A stretch of 42,432 bases of DNA from Actinomycetales bacterium (GTDB lineage: Bacteria; Actinomycetota; Actinomycetes; Actinomycetales; Dermatophilaceae). The DNA is taken from positions 1 to 42,432 of the forward strand of contig JAAYYA010000050.1 of the NCBI GenBank assembly GCA_012515595.1, given 5' to 3'. The translations under genes and the position numbers were made by a program. The notes under the pieces were generated by a model, which was given only the letters and a program-made list of their open reading frames with translations, was not told the DNA's origin and ran no database searches. Below, piece by piece: positions 1 to 42,432 of this stretch. How positions within the stretch are numbered: the stretch's first letter is position 1; each line of letters starts with the position of its first letter.

Positions 1-64
1 CGACGCGCCCGGTGGCACTCAGGACCGCAACACGACGCGCCCGGTGGCACTCAGGACCGCAACG
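1..64. repeat. Two tandem 32-bp repeats (CGACGCGCCCGGTGGCACTCAGGACCGCAACa/g) just 3' of the carbonic anhydrase gene; partial third copy from 65
   Basis: Direct reading: 1-32 and 33-64 differ only at the last base; continues as ccgcgcgcccggt. Confidence 0.9.
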
Positions 65-93
65 CCGCGCGCCCGGTCGTTGGTGGAGGCCGG

Positions 94-9562: not shown

Positions 9563-9692
9563 AATTTTCGCAGGGGTTTTGCGGGTCCATCCCGGATTTT
9601 CGTAGGGGTTTTGTCGGTCCCACCCGCATTTTCGTAGCGGTTTCGTACGCCCTCCACACAACTTCGCAGGGGTTTCGTACGTCTCCCGCACC
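9563..9692 (+). repeat. Four imperfect tandem copies of a 32-33 bp unit (approx. ATTTTCGTAGGGGTTTcGTacGcCCtCCcCaC)
   Basis: Copies at 9563, 9596, 9628, 9661; begins 2 nt after the DUF4245 stop. Confidence 0.85.
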
Positions 9693-9778
9693 TGGTCGGC
9701 CCTCCTGACTGATCCGTTGGGTGTCGGTGCGCCGGGCGGAGGGAGTATGACGCCCAGCCCGCCTGGCTCGACCCCCGG

Positions 9779-9903
9779 TGCCTCGTGGGTCAATCAGGTG
9801 CGCTCTGGGGGACCCCATCTTCCCCACGAGCCGACTGCCCTCGGACGGGGTGCCTCGTGGGTCAATCAGGTGCGCTCGGGGGGACCCCAACTTCCCCACG
9901 AGA
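9779..9903. repeat. Two direct copies, 72-bp period, each with inverted arms CTCGTGGG...CCCACGAG
   Basis: TGCCTCGTGGGTCAATCAGGTGCGCTC(t/g)GGGGGACCCCA(t/a)CTTCCCCACGAG at 9779 and 9851. Confidence 0.9.
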
Positions 9904-9929
9904 CGATGCTCCGGACGGGGGCAGCCGCG

Positions 9930-32873: not shown

Positions 32874-34537
32874 GGATCACCGCGACCAGTGACCTGTGGT
32901 GGAAGAGCGCCGTCATCTACTGCCTGGACGTCGAGACCTACTCCGACGCCGACGGTGACGGGACCGGTGACCTCGCGGGCCTGGCCCGGCGCATCGACTA
33001 CCTGGCCCGGCTCGGGGTGAACTGCCTCTGGCTGATGCCCTTCTTCCCGACCCCCGACCGGGACGACGGCTACGACGTCATGGACTTCTACGGGGTGGAC
33101 CCCCGGTTGGGCAATCACGGGCAGCTGGTCGAGGTGATCCGCACCGCGCACGACCGCGGCATCCGGGTCATCATCGACCTCGTCATCAACCACACCTCGG
33201 ACCGGCACCCGTGGTTCCGCGCCGCGCGGCGCAGCACGGACAACCCGTTCCGGGACTACTACGTGTGGCGCGACACGGCCCCGCCCGACACCTCCGACCA
33301 GGTGGTCTTCCCCGACCAGGAGGACTCGATCTGGACGCGGGAGGAGAAGACCGGGGAGTGGTACCTGCACCACTTCTACCGCCACCAGCCCGACCTCAAC
33401 ACCGCCCACCCGGCCGTCCGCGAGGAGATCCTGCGGGTGATCGGGTTCTGGCTGGAGCTGGGGGTCGACGGGTTCCGCGTCGACGCCGTACCCTTTTTCA
33501 TCGAGGACATCGAGCGGGGCGCCGGCGAGCTGCCCCGTGACCCGCACGACGTGCTCCGCGAGATCCGTGCGTTCCTGACCCGCCGCAAGGGCTCGGCCGT
33601 CCTCCTCGGGGAGGTGAACCTGCCCTACGAGCAGCAGCTCGACTACTTCGGCGGTGAGCGGGGGGACCAGCTGCAGCTGCAGTTCGACTTCGTCGGCATG
33701 CAGGCCACTTACCTCGCCCTCGCCCGCGGCGAGGCCACGCCCCTGGTCGAGGCGCTGGGGCGCCGCCCGACGCTGCACCGCACCTCGCAGTGGGCCAACT
33801 TCCTGCGCAACCACGACGAGCTGACCCTCGACAAGCTCAGCGAGGCGGAACGGGAGGAGGTCTTCGCCGCCTTCGGCCCCGAGGAGTCCATGCAGCTCTA
33901 CGGGCGCGGGCTCAAGCGTCGGCTGCCGCCCATGCTCGACGGCGACCCCCGGCGGCTCCGGATGGCCTACAGCCTGATGTTCTCCCTCCCCGGCACTCCG
34001 GCGATCTACTACGGGGAGGAGATCGGGATGGGGGAGGACCTGGCCGCCGAGGGCCGGATGGCGGTGCGCACCCCGATGCAGTGGAACGCCGGTCCCGCCG
34101 GAGGCTTCTCCGCGGCGCCGCCCCGGCGGCTCATCCAGCGCCCGACCCCCGACGGGTACTCCCCGGAGCACGTCAACGTCGCCGACCAGGTGCGCGACCC
34201 GGACTCGCTCTGGACGTTCATGCGCTCCCTCATCGCGGCCCGCAGGGAGTGCCCCGAGCTCGGCTGGGCCCCGGAGCTCGAGGTCCTGGGCCAACCCCAC
34301 CGCCAGGTGCTGGCCCACTGCTGCCGCGGCCCGGAGGCGTCGGTGGTCGCGGTGCACAACTTCGGGGCCGACGCGGTGACTCTGGACGTCGACCTCAGCG
34401 CGTTGGGGGAGCACGCGATCGACCTGCTCGCCCACGACGCGGTCGAGCTCGCCGACGGCCGGCTCGAGCTCAGCCTGGAGGGCTTCGGACACCGCTGGTT
34501 CCGGGTGGGTCCGCCCGAGCGGATCTCCGTCCCCTGA
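32870..34537 (+). CDS. GH13 alpha-amylase family protein, trehalose synthase (TreS)-like
   Basis: VIIDLVINHTSDRHPWF, DGFRVDAVPF, LLGEVN, NFLRNHDELTLDKL; 4-nt overlap with upstream gene. Confidence 0.9.
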   Translation: MRITATSDLWWKSAVIYCLDVETYSDADGDGTGDLAGLARRIDYLARLGVNCLWLMPFFPTPDRDDGYDVMDFYGVDPRLGNHGQLVEVIRTAHDRGIRVIIDLVINHTSDRHPWFRAARRSTDNPFRDYYVWRDTAPPDTSDQVVFPDQEDSIWTREEKTGEWYLHHFYRHQPDLNTAHPAVREEILRVIGFWLELGVDGFRVDAVPFFIEDIERGAGELPRDPHDVLREIRAFLTRRKGSAVLLGEVNLPYEQQLDYFGGERGDQLQLQFDFVGMQATYLALARGEATPLVEALGRRPTLHRTSQWANFLRNHDELTLDKLSEAEREEVFAAFGPEESMQLYGRGLKRRLPPMLDGDPRRLRMAYSLMFSLPGTPAIYYGEEIGMGEDLAAEGRMAVRTPMQWNAGPAGGFSAAPPRRLIQRPTPDGYSPEHVNVADQVRDPDSLWTFMRSLIAARRECPELGWAPELEVLGQPHRQVLAHCCRGPEASVVAVHNFGADAVTLDVDLSALGEHAIDLLAHDAVELADGRLELSLEGFGHRWFRVGPPERISVP

Positions 34538-34543
34538 CCCACC

Positions 34544-34607
34544 CAAGAATGTAGGGGTCCCGTACGCCCTCCGCACAAGAATGTAGGGGTCCCGTACGCG
34601 CTCCATC
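34544..34607 (+). repeat. Two tandem 32-bp repeats CAAGAATGTAGGGGTCCCGTACGCCCTCCGCA
   Basis: 34544-34575 and 34576-34607; begins 6 nt after TreS-like stop. Confidence 0.9.
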
Positions 34608-34813
34608 CGCCCGCCACGTCAGCGTCCGAAGATGCCCGGAGTGCTCCACCCCCGCCGTCGCACTGCGTGCCCGGACAACTTCGAGCGCCTTCGTCATCTT
34701 CGGTACGGTTACAACCATCTCGAGGAACCCGAGGGCGCTCGAAGACGGGGGGAGGCGCGTCGGGGCAGGAGGGTGGTGAACCTCGAGGGAGCGCGGCTGG
34801 TGGCTAGAAGGGG

Positions 34814-35413
34814 TCAGAAGTCGATTCGGACCACGGCCCGGCGCTTCGTCGGCCGGGTCACCTCCGTGAAGCCCGCGTCCAGGTAGGTCCCGATGGTCCC
34901 GACGTGGAGCTCCTCGTCGATGGCTGCCTTCGTCGTCATCGGGTAGGCCTCCAGCGCCGCCGCGCCGCGCGCCCGGGCGAACTCGACCGCCGCGAGGACG
35001 AGCTCGGTGCCCAGACCCTGCCTGCGGAAGCGCGCCCGGGCGAACACGCAGGTGATCGCCCATACCGACGGGTCCCCGCGGTCCTCCTCGCGCCCGGCCC
35101 ACGGCACCTGGCTGTGCCGCAGACCCGGGAACTCCGGGCGCGGCTCGACCGCGCACCAGCCGACCGGCTCCCCGTCGAGGTAGGCGACCAGGCCGCTCGT
35201 GACGATCGCCTCCGGGTTGCCGCAGTCGGTCTGTGCGCGGAGCCGGGCCATCCGCTCCTCGACGGGTTGCTCGGCGAAGTTCTCCCGGGGCAGCAGCTTG
35301 TAGCGCTGGCATTGGCAGCGCGCCCCCTGCCCGCGCGTGCCGAAGACCACCTGCAGGTCCTCGCAGGCCGCCTCGTTGGCTGGGCGGATCTCGAGCACGG
35401 CGCCGTCGGCCAT
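34814..35413 (-). CDS. GNAT family N-acetyltransferase
   Basis: ITCVFARARFRRQGLGTELVLAAVEFARARGAAALEAYP. Confidence 0.87.
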   Translation of the reverse strand: MADGAVLEIRPANEAACEDLQVVFGTRGQGARCQCQRYKLLPRENFAEQPVEERMARLRAQTDCGNPEAIVTSGLVAYLDGEPVGWCAVEPRPEFPGLRHSQVPWAGREEDRGDPSVWAITCVFARARFRRQGLGTELVLAAVEFARARGAAALEAYPMTTKAAIDEELHVGTIGTYLDAGFTEVTRPTKRRAVVRIDF

Positions 35414-35472
35414 GGACGCCAGCGTAGGAGCCCGGGCGCCGCACCGCCAGCGGCGGACGGCACAATCGGCGG

Positions 35473-36057
35473 GTGCCCGAGATGTCCAGCCCGAGTCCGT
35501 CGACCGCCGGGCACGTCGACCCCGGACACACCGTGCTCGCGGTCCCGGTGCCGCCGCTGGAGGCGTTCGTCCGGGAGCGGACCGCCCACTACGACGCGGA
35601 CTACCTGGCGGCCGACCCGGACTTCGGCCAGGCCCACGTCACGGTCCTGGGGCCGTGGGTGCGCGAGCCCACTCCGGCCGACCTGGCCGTGATCGCGCAG
35701 ATCGCCGCCCGCACCGACCCGTTCGACTACGTGCTCGCCCGCACCGGGGTCTTCCCCAACGGGATCATCCACCTGCTGCCCGACCCGGACGGGCCCTTCC
35801 GGAGCCTCACCCGAGCGGTGGGAGACCGCTTCCCGGACCACCCGCCATACGACGGGCAGTTCCCCGACCCCGTGCCCCACGTGACGCTGGACGCCGTCGG
35901 TCCCGCGACGGACGAGCGCGCGGTGCGCATGATGCTCGGGCCCCGGATCCCGGTGGCGTGCCGCGCCGAGGCGGTGCAGCTGCAGTGGTGGCAGGCTGGG
36001 CGCTGCCACGTGCAGCGGACGTGGCGCCTCGGGATGAGCTCAGGAGGAGCGCGATGA
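35473..36057 (+). CDS. 2'-5' RNA ligase / 2H phosphoesterase-like protein
   Basis: Two HxT motifs: HVTVLG and HVTLD. Confidence 0.8.
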   Translation: MPEMSSPSPSTAGHVDPGHTVLAVPVPPLEAFVRERTAHYDADYLAADPDFGQAHVTVLGPWVREPTPADLAVIAQIAARTDPFDYVLARTGVFPNGIIHLLPDPDGPFRSLTRAVGDRFPDHPPYDGQFPDPVPHVTLDAVGPATDERAVRMMLGPRIPVACRAEAVQLQWWQAGRCHVQRTWRLGMSSGGAR

Positions 36058-36581
36058 GGATCCTGGTGACCGGTGGAGTCCGCTCCGGCAAGTCCCACCA
36101 CGCCGAGAGCCTGCTGCGGGAAGAGCCGTCGGTGAGCTACCTCGCGACCGGCCCGGACGAGGCGGCCGAGCCCGACCCCGACTGGGCACACCGGCTGGCC
36201 GTCCACCGAGCGCGGCGGCCGGCCACGTGGACCACGGTCGAGTCCTCCGACCCGGCGACCGCGCTCGCCGAGAGCACCGACGCGGTGCTCCTCGACTGCC
36301 TGGGCACCTGGCTGACCGCGCAGGTCGACCGGCAGGGGATGTGGGAAGAGCCGGTCGACGAGGTGACCTCGATGATGCGTCACGAGACCGCACGGCTGAC
36401 CGCGGCGCTGCAGCGTCCGCAGCTGACCGTGTTGGTGACCAACGAGGTCGGTCTGGGGGTGGTGCCCGAGCACCGGTCCGGGCGGCTGTTCCGCGACGTG
36501 CTGGGGGAGGTCAACCGCGAGGTCGCCGCCGCCTGCGACGAGGTCCACCTGGTCGTCGCGGGCCGGGTGCTCGTGCTCTGA
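36054..36581 (+). CDS. cobU: Bifunctional adenosylcobinamide kinase/guanylyltransferase
   Basis: ILVTGGVRSGKSHHAESLL, LLDCLGTWLTAQVD, TNEVGLGVVPEHRSGRLFRDVLGEVN. Confidence 0.94.
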   Translation: MRILVTGGVRSGKSHHAESLLREEPSVSYLATGPDEAAEPDPDWAHRLAVHRARRPATWTTVESSDPATALAESTDAVLLDCLGTWLTAQVDRQGMWEEPVDEVTSMMRHETARLTAALQRPQLTVLVTNEVGLGVVPEHRSGRLFRDVLGEVNREVAAACDEVHLVVAGRVLVL

Positions 36582-36658
36582 ACGGCCGTATGCCGAGTGG
36601 TCGCCCGCGAGGACGCGCGCGGCTCAGGCGACGGCGAGCAGCGGGCCTCCCCGCGCCA

Positions 36659-36717
36659 TGCGACCAGATGGGCGCCGTGAGACGTCCAGGCACGCACTCA
36701 GCGCCCATCTGGTCGCA
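36659..36717. repeat. 17-bp perfect inverted repeat TGCGACCAGATGGGCGC / GCGCCCATCTGGTCGCA, 25-nt loop
   Basis: Arms 36659-36675 and 36701-36717 between convergent cobU and cobS. Confidence 0.9.
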
Positions 36718-36754
36718 CGGCTTGCGAGCACCGCGACCTACGTCAGTGCCGGCG

Positions 36755-37513
36755 TCAGGCCACCGCGAGCAGCAGCACCGCCAGCGTGACCTCGACGCAC
36801 GCGCCGAGGACGTCCCCGGTCACGCCCCCGAGGCGGCGGACGGCCAGGGTGAGGCAGCCGGCCAGCGCGAGCGCGGCCAGGATCGGTGCCAGCAGGCCGC
36901 GGAGGTCGAAGCCGGGGAGCAGGGCGACCGCCCACACCACTGCGGCGGCCAGGAGCCCGACGGCGACCGCGCCCGCCGGGTGGACCGAGCCGGCGACGGT
37001 CGCGCCGAGCCCGTCCGGCCGGGCCGCGGGGACGCCCCGGGCGCAGGCGACCGGGAGCGCGGCGCGTGAGGCGACCACGACGGCGGCGGCGAGCCACGGC
37101 CCGTGGGCCACCGACACCAGGGAGGCCAGTCCGACGGCCTGGATCCCGAGGACGACGACGAGGGCCACCACGCCCGACGGCCCGGCGGTGCCGGAGCGCA
37201 TGACCGCCAGGGAGCGCTCCCGGTCAGTGGAGGCGGTGAGGCCGTCCACGGTGTCGGAGAGGCCGTCCAGGTGCAGCATCCGGGAGACCCAGGCCAGCAG
37301 GGCGACGCCGAGCAGGCCCACGGCGAGCGGGGCCAGCACCCCCTCCCGGCCCAGCGCGACCAGGGCGGTCACACCGCCCGCGGCGGGCAGCGCCGTCAGC
37401 GGGGCGAGCAGCATGGCCGTGCCGGCGGTGGCGCGGTCGATCGTGGCAGGCGGGCGCACCGGGATGCGGGTCAGGGTGCCCAGGGCCAGGCGCCACCCGT
37501 CGGCCAGGCTCAC
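36755..37513 (-). CDS. cobS: Adenosylcobinamide-GDP ribazoletransferase
   Basis: RMLHLDGLSDTVDGL signature; multi-TM; follows CobT. Confidence 0.92.
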   Translation of the reverse strand: MSLADGWRLALGTLTRIPVRPPATIDRATAGTAMLLAPLTALPAAGGVTALVALGREGVLAPLAVGLLGVALLAWVSRMLHLDGLSDTVDGLTASTDRERSLAVMRSGTAGPSGVVALVVVLGIQAVGLASLVSVAHGPWLAAAVVVASRAALPVACARGVPAARPDGLGATVAGSVHPAGAVAVGLLAAAVVWAVALLPGFDLRGLLAPILAALALAGCLTLAVRRLGGVTGDVLGACVEVTLAVLLLAVA

Positions 37514-38549
37514 CCGAGCTCCTCCAGCAGCGCGACGTCCCGCAGCAGGGCGGCCGCGCCGCGCAGCAGCGGCACGGCGGCCACGGCACCCGACCCCTCG
37601 CCGAGGCGCATCCCGAGGTCCAGCAGCGGCGACAGCCCGAGGGCCTCCAGGGCCAGTGCCTGGCCCGGCTCGGGGGAGCGGTGACCGGCCGCGAACCAGG
37701 CGGCCGTACCCGGGGCCAGCCGCTCGGCATACAGCCCGCAGGTCACCCCCAAGAGACCGTCGAGCAGGGCGGGGGTGCCGGCGCCGGCGGCGGTGACCAG
37801 GAAGGACGTGGCGGCGACCAGGTCGGCGCTGCCCAGCCCGCGCAGCGCCTCGGCGGGGTCCGCGGCGCGGGGGCCGAGGCGGGTGAGGGCCCGTTCGACG
37901 ACGGCGGTCTTGCGCGCCAGGCCTGGGTCGTCGACGCCCGTGCCGCGGCCGGTGACCTGCGCGGCGGACAGGCCGAGCGCCGCCGCCACCAGCGCGGCCG
38001 CGGGTGTGGTGTTGCCGATGCCCATGTCGCCGGTGACCAGCAGGTCGCCCCCGGCGGCGAGCTCCTCCCGGGCGGCGGCCTCCCCGGCAGCCCAGGCCTC
38101 GGCATACTCCCGCTCGGTGAGGGCGTCCGCCTTGTGGATCGGCGCGCTGCCGCGGTGCACCTTGTGCCGCTGGACCTCGGACCTCAGGTCATCGGGAAGG
38201 TCTGCGAACTCGTCGGTGCAGCCCAGGTCGAGGACCCGGACGTGCACGCCGTGGGCCCGGGCCAGGGCGTTGACCCCGGCCCGGCCGGTCAGGAAGGTGC
38301 GCACCATGGCGCCGGTGATATCCGGCGGGAAGGCGGAGACGCCGTGGCCCGCGACTCCGTGGTCGCCGGCGAAGATGACCAGTCGGACGGAGGCCGGCGG
38401 CGCCGGCGGGACCACTCCCTGGACGGCGCTGAGCCAGACCGCGGCCTCCCCGAGCCGGCCCAGGGCACCGGGCGGTGTCGCGAGGGCGGCGAGCCGCCGG
38501 GTGGCCCGCTCGCGGGCGGCGGCCGAGGGCGCGGGGACGGCGGGGATGA
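37510..38549 (-). CDS. cobT: Nicotinate-nucleotide-dimethylbenzimidazole phosphoribosyltransferase; N-terminus extends past first canonical start (GTG at 38415)
   Basis: VIFAGDHGVAGHGVSAFPPDIT, MGIGNTTPAAALVAAALG; upstream in-frame VIPAVPAPSAAARERATRRLAALATPPGALGRLGEAAVWL is CobT-like. Confidence 0.85.
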
Positions 38550-38604
38550 CGGCTCCTCGGGGAGGGGGTCGGGGGCCGTCCCAGGGTACGGCCCCCTCGA
38601 CCGC

Positions 38605-39195
38605 CTAGGACACCGGACGCCACCCCGGCGGCGGGTCCTCGCCGACCAACCCGTCCACGGCCTCCCGGAGCAGGTCCGCGTGACCGGTGTGACGTCCATA
38701 CTCCTCGACGAGGTCGCAGACCAGGCGGCGCAGGCTCGCGTGGTGGCCGCGGTCGTCGGTGATCGCCGCCGGCTGGTCGAGCCCGCCGTCCTCGAGGGCG
38801 TCGGTGAGCCGCTGCCGCGCCCGGGTGACCTTACTGTCGTAGAGGGCGTAGAGGGTGGCCGGCGAGTCATCCGCGGCCGTCGTGAACTCCCAGTCCGGGT
38901 CCAGGTCGAAGACCGCCGGGTCCCAGGGCCCGCCGGGCGAGTCGCCGCTCAGCTTGAGGAAGAAGGTGTGGTCCTCCACGAGCGCCAGGTGCTTGAGGAG
39001 GCCGCCCAGGGTCAGCGCGGACGCGCCGACGCGGGCGGTCAGCCCGGCGTGGTCCAGCCCGTCGGTCTTCCAGCGGAAGGTGTGGCGCAGCCGCTCCAGC
39101 ATGCCGAGCAGGTGCTCCACGTCGGTGCCCGACAGGGGCGGCTCCCACGGGGTGGCCTCGGAGCCGTGCACGGGGTCGGTCGTCTGATCGGTCAT
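38605..39195 (-). CDS. DinB/DUF664 family protein
   Basis: LGGLLKHLALVEDHTFF, LVCDLVEEYGRHTGHADLLREAVDG. Confidence 0.88.
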   Translation of the reverse strand: MTDQTTDPVHGSEATPWEPPLSGTDVEHLLGMLERLRHTFRWKTDGLDHAGLTARVGASALTLGGLLKHLALVEDHTFFLKLSGDSPGGPWDPAVFDLDPDWEFTTAADDSPATLYALYDSKVTRARQRLTDALEDGGLDQPAAITDDRGHHASLRRLVCDLVEEYGRHTGHADLLREAVDGLVGEDPPPGWRPVS

Positions 39196-39221
39196 GGTGT
39201 GCCTCCTGTGATCGGCCCGTG

Positions 39222-39259
39222 GTCCGGGTCCCTCGTTGACCGTAGAATCGGTCCCGGAC
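39222..39259. promoter_or_regulatory. 10-bp inverted repeat GTCCGGGTCC/GGTCCCGGAC (one mismatch) in the divergent DinB/WYL promoter region
   Basis: Arms 39222-39231 and 39250-39259, spacer TTGACCGTAGAAT-rich. Confidence 0.45.
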
Positions 39260-39285
39260 GATTCGGGGTAGGGACAGGAGTCGCG

Positions 39286-40242
39286 ATGCGATCCGAGGTG
39301 AGCCCGACCGCCCGGGCCCTGCTGGCCCTGGAGCTGATCCAGACCCGGCCCGGCATCACCGCCGACCAGCTGGCCGAGCGGCTCGGCGTCACGCCCCGCG
39401 CGGCCCGCCGCTACGTGGCGATCCTGCGCGAGGCGGAGATCCCGATCGTGTCCACGAGCGGGCCCTTCGGCGGCTACCGACCGGGCCGCGGGATCCGGCT
39501 GCCCCCGCTGACCTTCAGCCAGGGCGAGGCGCTGGCACTGGTCATGGCCGTGCTCGACGGTCACCACGACGCGGCCGACCCCTCCGACACGGCGGGGTCG
39601 GCGCTGGGCAAGATCCTGCGCGCCCTGCCCGAGGCGGTGGCCGCCCAGGCGGGCGCGGTCCGACTCACGGCGGCCTCGACGCCCGACCGCGGCGCCGCCA
39701 GGCCCGACCCGGTGATGACGGCGACCCTCGTGGCGGCCTGCGCCGACCGGGTGGTGACCGAGATCGGCTACCGCTCCGAGGCGGGCAACGAGTGGACCTC
39801 CCTGGTCGAGCCGTGGGCGGTCGTGGTGCGCCACGGCCGGTGGTACCTGCTGTGCCGCGCCGTCGACCGGGACGCCGTGCGCACCTACCGCGTGGACCGG
39901 ATCACCGCGGCCACGCCGGGCAGCGCCACCTTCGACCCCCCGCCGGACCTGGATCCGGTGGCCGAGCTCGAGACCCACCTCGGCACCGGCTGGGAGTTCC
40001 CCACCGAGGTCCTCATCGAGGGACCGCTGGAGATGTGCCGGCGGGTGCTGCCGGCGCCGGCGGGGAGGCTCACCGCCGTGGACGAGCGGACCACCCGCCT
40101 GGTCGGCAGCACCAGCAACCTCTACTCGTATGCCGAGTGGCTGGCTCGTCTGTCCGTCCCGTTCCGCATCGTGGAGGGACCGGAGCTGCGCACGGTCGTC
40201 CGGGAGCTGGCGGAGCGGATGACCGCGGCGGTCGACGGCTGA
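39286..40242 (+). CDS. HTH + WYL domain transcriptional regulator
   Basis: LLALELIQTRPGITADQLAERLGVTPRAARRYVAILREAEIPI; WAVVVRHGRWYLLCRAVDRDAVRTYRVDRI. Confidence 0.93.
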   Translation: MRSEVSPTARALLALELIQTRPGITADQLAERLGVTPRAARRYVAILREAEIPIVSTSGPFGGYRPGRGIRLPPLTFSQGEALALVMAVLDGHHDAADPSDTAGSALGKILRALPEAVAAQAGAVRLTAASTPDRGAARPDPVMTATLVAACADRVVTEIGYRSEAGNEWTSLVEPWAVVVRHGRWYLLCRAVDRDAVRTYRVDRITAATPGSATFDPPPDLDPVAELETHLGTGWEFPTEVLIEGPLEMCRRVLPAPAGRLTAVDERTTRLVGSTSNLYSYAEWLARLSVPFRIVEGPELRTVVRELAERMTAAVDG

Positions 40243-40289
40243 GGGCCATCTCGGTTGCCCCGCGCCCCGGCGGCATCGACGATGGGGTG

Positions 40290-40700
40290 ATGACCTCCTT
40301 CATCTCGCACACGTCGGTCGACTGCACGGACGCCTACGCGCTCTCCACGTGGTGGAAAGGCGTGCTCGGCTACACCGACCTGCCGGACGACCCCAACGAG
40401 CCGGGCCACGAGGAGTGCCTGATCCAGGACCCCGGGACCGGACACCAGCTGCTCTTCATCGAGGTGCCGGACCCGACCCCGGGCAAGAACAAGGTCCACT
40501 TCGACCTGCGACCGCGGGACCTGACCCAGCAGGAGGAGGTCGACCGGCTCCTGGGGCACGGTGCGGCGTTGTCGACCGACCACCGGGGGATCTACGGCGA
40601 GGGCACGGGGTGGGTGACGCTCGCGGACCCCGAGGGCAACCTCTTCTGCGTGCTGAAGTCCGAGGCCGAGCGGGCCGCGGCGCGGGCGCAGGACTCCTGA
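40290..40700 (+). CDS. VOC (glyoxalase/bleomycin-resistance-like) family protein
   Basis: STWWKGVLGYTDL, NKVHFDLRPRD, GWVTLADPEGNLFCVL. Confidence 0.9.
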   Translation: MTSFISHTSVDCTDAYALSTWWKGVLGYTDLPDDPNEPGHEECLIQDPGTGHQLLFIEVPDPTPGKNKVHFDLRPRDLTQQEEVDRLLGHGAALSTDHRGIYGEGTGWVTLADPEGNLFCVLKSEAERAAARAQDS

Positions 40701-41131
40701 GCGCCTTCGAGTTTCGCCACGCCTGGTCCCTGACGGCGGACCGGGCAAGGGTGTTCGCGGTGCTCGCGGACCTGGGTGACTACCCGAGCTGGTGGCCCCA
40801 GGTGCGGTCCGTGGTGCGCATCGACGACGACGCGGCCGAGGTGGTGGTGCGCAGCGTCCTGCCCTACACCCTGCGGCTCGTGCTGACCCGTGAGGTCGAG
40901 GACGAGGCCAATGGCCTGCTGCGGGTGGGGATCGGCGGTGACCTGTGCGGCTGGTCGCAGTGGGTCGTGCGCGACGACGGCCCGACGGTGGCCGAGTTCA
41001 CCGAGGAGGTCGAGGTGGCCGGCGCCCTGGGTGCGGTCGCCCGCCCCGGTGCCCGCCTGATGCGGGCGAACCATCGCGCCATGATGCACGGGGGCGAGCG
41101 GGGTCTGGCCCGCCATCTGGGGGCCGACTAG
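40697..41131 (+). CDS. SRPBCC family protein; apparent CTG start in a CTGA overlap
   Basis: FEFRHAWSLTADRARVFAVLADLGDYPSWWPQVRSV; no ATG/GTG/TTG near the fold start. Confidence 0.75.
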   Translation: MSAFEFRHAWSLTADRARVFAVLADLGDYPSWWPQVRSVVRIDDDAAEVVVRSVLPYTLRLVLTREVEDEANGLLRVGIGGDLCGWSQWVVRDDGPTVAEFTEEVEVAGALGAVARPGARLMRANHRAMMHGGERGLARHLGAD

Positions 41132-41138
41132 TGCAGGA

Positions 41139-41372
41139 CTAGTCAGCGCGGCGCCGGTTGCGCGGGTGCTGTCGGGCGACGCGCTCGTTCCCCCGGCGGT
41201 AGTTGCCGGTGACCCGCGCCATGAGCAGCTGGTCGTCCCCGAAGGCCACGTCCTCGAGGAAGTCGGCGGCCCGCCTCCCGCGCAGCGTCGTCGCCAGGAC
41301 CCCGTGGTGCCGGATGCGGACCTCCCCGGCCGCGCTCACGGCATACTCGAATCCCTCTGGCACGTGCCCCAT
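41139..41372 (-). CDS. Small hypothetical protein (77 aa)
   Basis: MGHVPEGFEYAVSAAGEVRIRHHGVLATTLRGRRAADFLEDVAFGDDQLLMARVTGNYRRGNERVARQHPRNRRRAD. Confidence 0.7.
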   Translation of the reverse strand: MGHVPEGFEYAVSAAGEVRIRHHGVLATTLRGRRAADFLEDVAFGDDQLLMARVTGNYRRGNERVARQHPRNRRRAD

Positions 41373-41460
41373 GGACCCAGCCTGACGCAGGGAGGGGCGT
41401 GGGTGCCACCCCTTTGCGCGTGCGACATACTGGACACCCAGCGCAACGGAGGTGGGCGAG

Positions 41461-42345
41461 ATGTCCAAGGGACACGTGGTCGTGGGTGTGGACGTGCCGG
41501 AGACCAGCGGCGATGCGGTCAAGTGGGCCGCCCGGACCGCGCAGGTGCACGGGGTGCCGCTCACGATGGTGCACGCCGTCGAGGGGGTCGCAGGACTGCC
41601 GACAGGTGTCGTGGGGGCGGAGGACACCACGACCCGGGACCTGCTCCAGGCCACCACGGAGGCCGAGACGACCCTGGACCACGCCGTGGCGGCGGTGCGC
41701 GAGGAGTTCCCCGACCTCGCAGTCAACCCGGTCGAGATCGTGGGGGACAACGTCAAGTCCCTCCTGGCCCACCAGGAGGACGCGCTGCTGGTCGTTGGCA
41801 CGGGCCGGCGCAACTCCCTGTCCGAGCTCATCCTCGGATCCACCTCGCTCGGCGTGGCGATGCACGCGTCCAGCCCGGTGGCCGTCGTGCCCCCCGGCAG
41901 CAGCGGCCAGGAGGTCCGCGGCGTGATCTCGGTCGCGGTGGACGGCAGCGCCGACAGCGCGGTGGCCGCGCGGATCGCCTGCCAGGAGGCGCGGGTCCGC
42001 GGTGCGAAGGTCGTCGCGATCAACACCTGGGGCCTGGAGGTGGTCGACGGGTTCGTGGTCACCGAGTCGGACCAGGAGCAGTTCGCCGCGATCCAGCAGC
42101 GCCAGGCTGACCTGGTGGAGCGGACCCTGGCGGGCGCCCGGCGGGACTACCCCGACGTCGAGATCGAGGTCCAGGTGGTGCACGGGCGGGTGATCGCGAC
42201 CCTCGTCGACTGGGCGGCCCGCTCCGACCTGCTCGTGATGGGCAGCCGTGGCCTTGGCGGGTTCTCGGGCAAGCTGCTCGGCTCGGTGAGCCAGCGCGTG
42301 CTGCGCCAGTCGACCTGCCCGGTGATGATCGCCAAGTCCAGCTGA
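41461..42345 (+). CDS. Universal stress protein, two tandem UspA domains
   Basis: VVVGVDVPETSGDAVKWAA; second domain GVISVAVDGSADSAVAARIA; LLVMGSRGLGGFSGKLLGSVSQRVLRQSTCPVMIAK. Confidence 0.93.
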   Translation: MSKGHVVVGVDVPETSGDAVKWAARTAQVHGVPLTMVHAVEGVAGLPTGVVGAEDTTTRDLLQATTEAETTLDHAVAAVREEFPDLAVNPVEIVGDNVKSLLAHQEDALLVVGTGRRNSLSELILGSTSLGVAMHASSPVAVVPPGSSGQEVRGVISVAVDGSADSAVAARIACQEARVRGAKVVAINTWGLEVVDGFVVTESDQEQFAAIQQRQADLVERTLAGARRDYPDVEIEVQVVHGRVIATLVDWAARSDLLVMGSRGLGGFSGKLLGSVSQRVLRQSTCPVMIAKSS

Positions 42346-42359
42346 CCGCCCCTTTCCCG

Positions 42360-42432
42360 ACCGGGCGCGCCGTGTGGCGCTCTCAGACCCCACCGGGCGC
42401 GCGGGGTGGCGCTCTCAGACCTGACCGGGCGC
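42360..42432 (+). repeat. Tandem 32-bp repeats ACCGGGCGCGCsGkGTGGCGCTCTCAGACCyS (2 full + 1 truncated by window)
   Basis: 42360-42391, 42392-42423, 42424 onward; begins 14 nt after USP stop. Confidence 0.9.

Follow-up and report, generated by a model that had tools for sequence, protein, structure and literature searches.

The window analyzed here, a stretch of 42,432 nucleotides, is one complete contig of a 3.97-Mb genome that is split into 568 contigs. Its carbonic anhydrase is 93% identical to the counterpart in Ornithinimicrobium sp. F0845 (G020), and the source actinobacterium is a relative of Ornithinimicrobium. Four genes of the window are each followed by a tandem array: a carbonic anhydrase gene (Pro_CA, PF00484; 94-600, minus strand), a DUF4245 gene (PF14030; 8970-9560, plus strand), a GH13 alpha-amylase-type (TreS-like) gene (PF00128; 32870-34537, plus strand), and a universal stress protein (Usp) gene (PF00582; 41452-42345, plus strand). 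Pfam matches bore out these gene assignments, which had been made in the initial annotation, and all four of the arrays claimed there were recovered. TRF returned a period of 32 at 1-77, 9564-9643, 34544-34604, and 42356-42432, and a lag scan extended the second one to 9681. The period had been given as exactly 32 bp at three loci and as 32 to 33 bp at the fourth; the first part stands, and the fourth array proved to have its anchors exactly 32 bp apart as well (4/4 arrays).

The repeats do vary in sequence between loci, as had been proposed. They are not four unrelated sequences, and instead fall into two families. Family A lies at both ends of the window. The array behind the carbonic anhydrase gene (1-77, minus strand) has cores at 58-77 and 26-45 and a half-site, ACCGGGCGC, at 5-13, with the first core beginning 16 nt past the stop codon. 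The array behind the Usp gene (42356-42432, plus strand) has cores at 42360-42379 and 42392-42411 and the half-site at 42424-42432, with the first core 14 nt past the stop codon. Each of the two is truncated by a contig end. Family B consists of a 17-bp core, CGTAGGGGTTTCGTACG, followed by a 15-bp spacer with an A/T tract, in which A and T are exchanged for one another while the A/T character is kept. The array at 9564-9681 (plus strand) begins 4 to 8 nt past the DUF4245 stop codon and contains four 17-bp cores, at 9569, 9601, 9633, and 9665, with 15-bp spacers; the array at 34544-34604 (plus strand) contains two cores, at 34550 and 34582, and lies 12 nt past the GH13 stop codon. The family A core (CGCACGGTGTTGCG) resembles the family B variant at 9569 (CGCAGGGGTTTTGCG), and on this resemblance the two families may share a common origin or a common binder.

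Cores were found at 5 of 105 contig ends compared with 0.4% of interior windows, so that ends are about eleven times richer, and the arrays contribute to the breaks in this assembly. Since the window is a whole contig and contig ends are enriched in arrays, both of its ends lie inside arrays. The convergent gap that holds the family B array at 9564-9681 also contains, at 9777-9920, two copies (∼91% identical) of a 72-bp unit with inverted arms CTCGTGGG and CCCACGAG; weaker relatives of this unit occur on other contigs of the genome (L011, L012, and L028).

A genome-wide excess at lag 32

Twelve segments with lag 32 were found in an unbiased 357-kb sample of this genome, compared with 0 to 4 at any other lag from 13 to 99. 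In 400 kb of a relative assembled as a single contig (G010), lag 32 gave 15 segments, lag 33 gave six, and lag 31 gave three. The genome-wide autocorrelation by which the initial annotation had proposed to check its claim thus yielded the excess at lag 32 in both samples. A 400-kb mix of other genomes, mostly of other genera, gave only two lag-32 segments, one belonging to family B in a same-genus genome (G006) and one coding; the repeat families are therefore not universal.

Family A cores with two or fewer mismatches numbered 263 in this genome, with 0 in the reversed control. A search for anchor pairs (ACCGRGCGC N{9,39} ACCGRGCGC, permitting lags of 18 to 48) returned 336 pairs in this genome and 0 in the control; among the 100 pairs listed, 89 were at lag 32 and four at lag 33. 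Relatives gave 201 (G010), 128 (G021), 51 (G008), and 48 (G002) pairs, with controls of 0 to 2, and G020 gave 16 with a control of 3. Lag 32 accounted for 42/51 of the pairs in G008 and lag 33 for five, and the spacers there were unlike those of the present genome (G000). The 20-bp family A core was at background level in most other genomes. A search of 32 genomes for family B found 71 pairs, spread over six species, of which 62 were at lag 32, eight at lag 31, and one at lag 33; the reversed-pattern control gave 0.

Reversed-pattern controls of 0 rule out a chance origin, and the same arrays in the single-contig genome G010 rule out an assembly artifact. The repeats are real and genome-wide, with hundreds of arrays in this genome and its kin. 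Intergenic arrays of the same genus and family also have periods of 13, 14, 23, 37, 41, 42, 45, 51, and more. On the basis of these other periods, tandem repeats are a common feature downstream of genes in this group, and 32 bp is a strong mode and not a rule. One array of another period is a perfect 14-bp tandem array of ATCGAAAGCCCCCG in G046 (L240:3345-3436), which starts 15 nt past a stop codon.

Conserved cores and spacers of constant length

We analyzed the anatomy of family A in 72 distinct arrays from the fetched stretches. Each unit consists of an invariant ACCGRGCGC within a 20-bp core, ACCGRGCGCRYSGTGTTGCG, followed by a 12-bp spacer, and arrays contain 1 to 9 units. Core bases 1 to 9 are nearly invariant. 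The first core is preceded by a C-rich leader (C fraction of 0.56, versus 0.41 after other stop codons) that ends in CG in 58 of 70 cases. In the last unit, the 5′ half has 0.56 mismatches and the 3′ half 3.58; arrays thus terminate in a half-site, with the 5′ part of the core retained and the 3′ part gone. In this genome, the array at L034:2885-2946 is preceded by shortened 22-bp units made of a half core and a spacer, an example of how a unit can lose precisely the last 10 bp of its core.

Gaps between family A units measured 32 bp in 130 of 153 cases, 33 bp in 15, and 34 bp in five, and the modal period was 32 in 60/63 arrays. Between arrays, the anchor was 0.89 identical and the spacer 0.46, where composition alone predicts 0.32 for the spacer. 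Spacers were more alike within an array (identity of 0.68) than between arrays (0.44), which rules out a CRISPR array. Since spacers differ strongly between loci while their length is kept, spacing appears to be constrained, as the initial annotation had suggested for variable sequence at a fixed period, and this pattern is seen genome-wide in more than one sequence family.

A rival explanation is that these are non-functional tandem repeats. A founding 32-bp array would have spread long ago, with its period inherited and not selected, and its descendants would be kept up by replication slippage and unequal exchange and survive where they are harmless, at gene ends and in protein linkers. Within one family, a founding array's period inherited via unequal exchange could mimic selection on spacing. 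The homogenization of spacers within loci is as this explanation would have it, and so are the half-sites at array ends, which resemble the partial units found on either side of Borg tandem repeats (PMC9879509). It accounts less well for non-core sequence that has diverged widely with few changes in length. We regard a non-functional origin as a genuine possibility, although not as the probable one.

Gain and loss of arrays between species

Arrays are gained and lost between species. Comparison of this genome with G010 revealed arrays at shared positions with different numbers of units (L259/L212 and L251/L220) and empty sites (for example, L034/L227 and L254/L212). Many orthologous regions of G010 have no array, so that an array is dispensable at any one locus. 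The flanks of the empty sites in G010 are too diverged for a MITE-style target duplication to be read. Downstream of the carbonic anhydrase gene, a short array in O. cavernae overlaps the stop codon, and strain F0845, the closest relative, has a half-site only. Abundance varies within the genus as well (336, 201, 128, 51, 48, and 16 family A pairs in six genomes). This variation in copy number and presence, together with the lone half-site of F0845, would be expected of repeats without a function.

Arrays lie at gene borders and occasionally within genes

Gene borders were taken from a simple codon-usage caller, with a Pfam check in 16 cases. Among the 62 intergenic family A arrays that had a called gene toward the anchor, the anchor side faced a stop codon in 45/62 cases (p = 5e-4) and a start codon in 17/62. 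The association with 3′ ends put forward in the initial annotation therefore holds for the majority of arrays, and the start-side minority does not agree with an exclusive 3′ element; start-side arrays include one that precedes the called start of an MreB gene by 25 nt and another that precedes a GlnR-like gene by 23 nt. Of 55 arrays, 42 had the anchor side toward whichever gene boundary was nearer (p = 1e-4). In 22 arrays, the first core began 9 to 19 nt past a stop codon; uniform placement would give 4.4, and no more than 11 occurred in any of 2000 trials. A non-functional origin with uniform placement leaves this peak unexplained.

By region, 25 arrays were in convergent, 23 in tandem, and 7 in divergent regions, and the sample contains 21 convergent versus 51 divergent regions. 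Arrays are thus enriched in convergent and depleted in divergent regions. If the repeats had no function, purifying selection alone would deplete them from divergent promoters. Of the arrays between tandem genes, 14 had the direction of transcription and 9 the opposite direction (p = 0.40); the orientation of an array appears to track the gene border and not transcription. A single region often contains a forward and a reverse array that face each other.

The initial annotation had stated that the repeats are never within a coding sequence. Our data contradict this: 7 of 72 family A arrays are inside called genes, and at least one is clearly in frame. One ABC transporter gene encodes two ATPase domains, and the linker that joins them contains four units in frame, two forward and two reverse. 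The orthologues in G006, G010, and G021 carry family A arrays of their own in the same linker, and that of G008 carries a half-site. In-frame arrays in a linker tolerant of insertion are compatible with repeats that are simply harmless. The linker of the Ornithinimicrobium sp. F0845 gene (G020; L290) holds an unrelated, nearly perfect in-frame hairpin of ∼23 bp, and repeats of different kinds thus seem to have landed in the ABC linker. A strong transcription stop would be costly in this gene, which argues against an obligatory barrier. Together with the start-side arrays, the in-gene arrays mean that a strong barrier to RNA polymerase cannot be the general effect.

RNA structure and mobility

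Could the arrays act at the RNA level, as terminators or 3′ untranslated region (3′UTR) hairpins, or as structures that stall ribosomes near the stop codon? The position of the first core 9 to 19 nt past the stop codon would suit such a role, C-rich leaders would suit Rho loading, and ribosomes stall at Escherichia coli REPs that lie no more than 15 nt from a stop codon, according to work cited in PMC12306157. RNA fold z-scores of nine arrays ranged from -0.9 to +2.1, no better than shuffles. Possible pairings within the family A core had one-sided changes at positions 1-14 and 3-12 in ∼42 to 46% of 65 distinct cores, and no compensatory changes were present among these 65. By this comparison, the palindrome of the core is not preserved. 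No terminator-like site (GC-rich hairpin plus T run) was found at the two arrays scanned in 34400-42432, and a search of Rfam gave no match for the arrays. On the fold statistics, one-sided changes, terminator scan, and Rfam search, we rejected the RNA hairpin or terminator reading, and an RNA-level terminator or 3′UTR structure, one of the candidate roles in the initial annotation, has the in-frame arrays within genes against it as well. We consider any RNA-level role very improbable. With RNA structure unsupported, recognition at the DNA level is more likely.

The arrays might alternatively be mobile palindromic elements of the REP/BIME or MITE type, moved by a transposase supplied in trans. 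REPs are short, many-copy, extragenic sequences, found mostly at gene 3′ ends and in convergent gaps and sometimes in genes, and they are lineage specific (PMC3733652); many are within 15 to 20 nt of a stop codon (PMC12306157). The arrays share the dispersal to gene ends, the convergent enrichment, the occasional in-gene copies, and the species-specific abundance, and forward and reverse arrays facing each other in one region would also fit. However, REPs are conserved palindromes tagged with GTAG or CGTC, often with a RAYT transposase, whereas the present units follow one another in a single orientation every 32 bp, and their palindrome is not kept, two of its four pairs being broken without compensation in ∼40 to 46% of units. 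The GTAG present in family B is not at a hairpin end. The elements stand in head-to-tail phase and vary in copy number, which does not resemble movement as one unit. The Y1 domain of RAYT-type transposases (PF01797) was absent from this genome, which is 93% complete, and present in 5 of 14 control genomes; on this result, REP/RAYT mobility was rejected. Taken together, mobility of this kind is unlikely. We also discarded a phage origin, as cores were at chance level in IMG/VR (four single matches for family A and none for family B).

Other families with conserved lengths

A third family, unrelated in sequence to A and B, is the palindrome TTTCCCTAGGGAAA, first found 14 nt past a stop codon in Janibacter hoylei. 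In one Janibacter-type genome (G157), it gave 74 strand-wise matches (∼37 close pairs); among the 11 places listed, eight were at lag 32 and three at 31, with unrelated spacers. In J. hoylei, the palindrome GTATTTCCCTAGGGAAATAC is repeated at a 31- to 32-bp pitch (L092:6997-7086). If the repeats had no function, it would be difficult to explain why two unrelated families here and a third in another genus share 31 to 32 bp. The agreement of unrelated families on this length favors protein binding over a non-functional origin, although three clear families are too few to settle the question.

A fourth family, TGTCCGCAG...CTGCGGACR, had an exact outer length of 42 bp in all matches but one, in five genomes, and a period of 64 in G035. 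Across these families, sequence varies and length is conserved. Intergenic arrays of 64-bp units with inverted arms were observed in Metallococcus, Humibacillus, and G035 (L091:9779-10018, L119:10356-10486, L128:10231-10317, and L308:12707-12817). We dropped the inverted arms 32 bp apart in the units of Humibacillus and Metallococcus as a further instance of the 32-bp pitch; only the 64-bp period is counted there because the distance between inverted arms depends on the chosen arm end.

Discussion

We propose, with a probability of roughly one-half, that the arrays are helically phased, lineage-specific protein-binding sites at gene borders that are amplified locally. Of the candidate roles put forward in the initial annotation, the helically phased protein-binding array is the one that fits best. 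At 10.5 bp per turn, a period of 32 bp corresponds to roughly three turns. The arrays would be rows of sites for a sequence-specific DNA-binding protein, recurring every three helical turns, so that the 32-bp pitch would align every site along a single side of the double helix. Binding would take place at the conserved core (20 bp in family A, ∼17 bp in family B), and the 12 to 15 bp between cores would be a spacer whose length matters and whose sequence does not. Sites would lie at gene borders, most often 9 to 19 bp past a stop codon between convergent genes. The putative protein would cover the border by cooperative binding and exert its effect on the DNA, possibly by insulating neighboring transcription units, by slowing read-through, or by constraining supercoils at the meeting points of transcripts. 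The data demonstrate the periods, the division into core and spacer, the placement and orientation of arrays, their homogenization by locus, and their gain and loss between species; protein binding, cooperativity, and every functional step are what we infer. The arrays would grow and shrink through local tandem duplication, which is our proposed reason why spacers are alike within a locus and different between loci.

Several known repeat systems share parts of this organization. Cyanobacterial LTRRs and the TAACTGA repeats of Beggiatoaceae are intergenic direct repeats with biased orientation and gene-end distance (PMC2408588, PMC4679880). As with the LTRR kind, head-to-tail units of one family occur here at many loci (72 distinct family A arrays). 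Unlike TAACTGA, which consists of pure 7-bp repeats mostly upstream of start codons, and unlike LTRRs, the present arrays combine a conserved core with a locus-specific spacer of fixed length and lie mostly past stop codons. The stoperators of cluster A mycobacteriophages are asymmetric, transcription-oriented sites in short gaps at which one repressor halts elongation (PMC9283540). By analogy, the arrays might work in a stoperator-like mode, although stoperators are 13-bp sites in a phage genome, whereas the arrays belong to the chromosome, where each of the more than 60 loci examined usually has 2 to 6 copies at a 32-bp pitch. Borg tandem repeats are intergenic and in frame in genes, have partial flanking units, and evolve fast (PMC9879509). 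The arrays likewise are both intergenic and in frame, with partial end units; however, almost every Borg repeat is unique and perfect, and unit length varies among them, whereas here two families occupy many loci at one pitch. None of the compared systems joins a conserved core, free spacer sequence, and a fixed three-turn pitch, and we found no prior description of these repeats in this group in the open-access literature.

A broader reading is that this actinobacterial family has a general class of gene-border elements, in which lineage-specific protein sites at a 32-bp pitch, with their spacing conserved and their sequence replaced, form a bacterial boundary or insulator at the ends of transcription units. 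We offer this extension tentatively and consider it rather doubtful.

The arrays account for part of the fragmentation of short-read assemblies, and they are ready-made typing markers. They also constitute a natural experiment on how the period of a tandem array persists through sequence turnover. If selection acts to maintain the spacing, an abundant DNA-binding protein would mark gene ends across an actinobacterial group. Such a system, if true, would be comparable to eukaryotic roadblock terminators or insulators, for which we know of no bacterial chromosomal counterpart.
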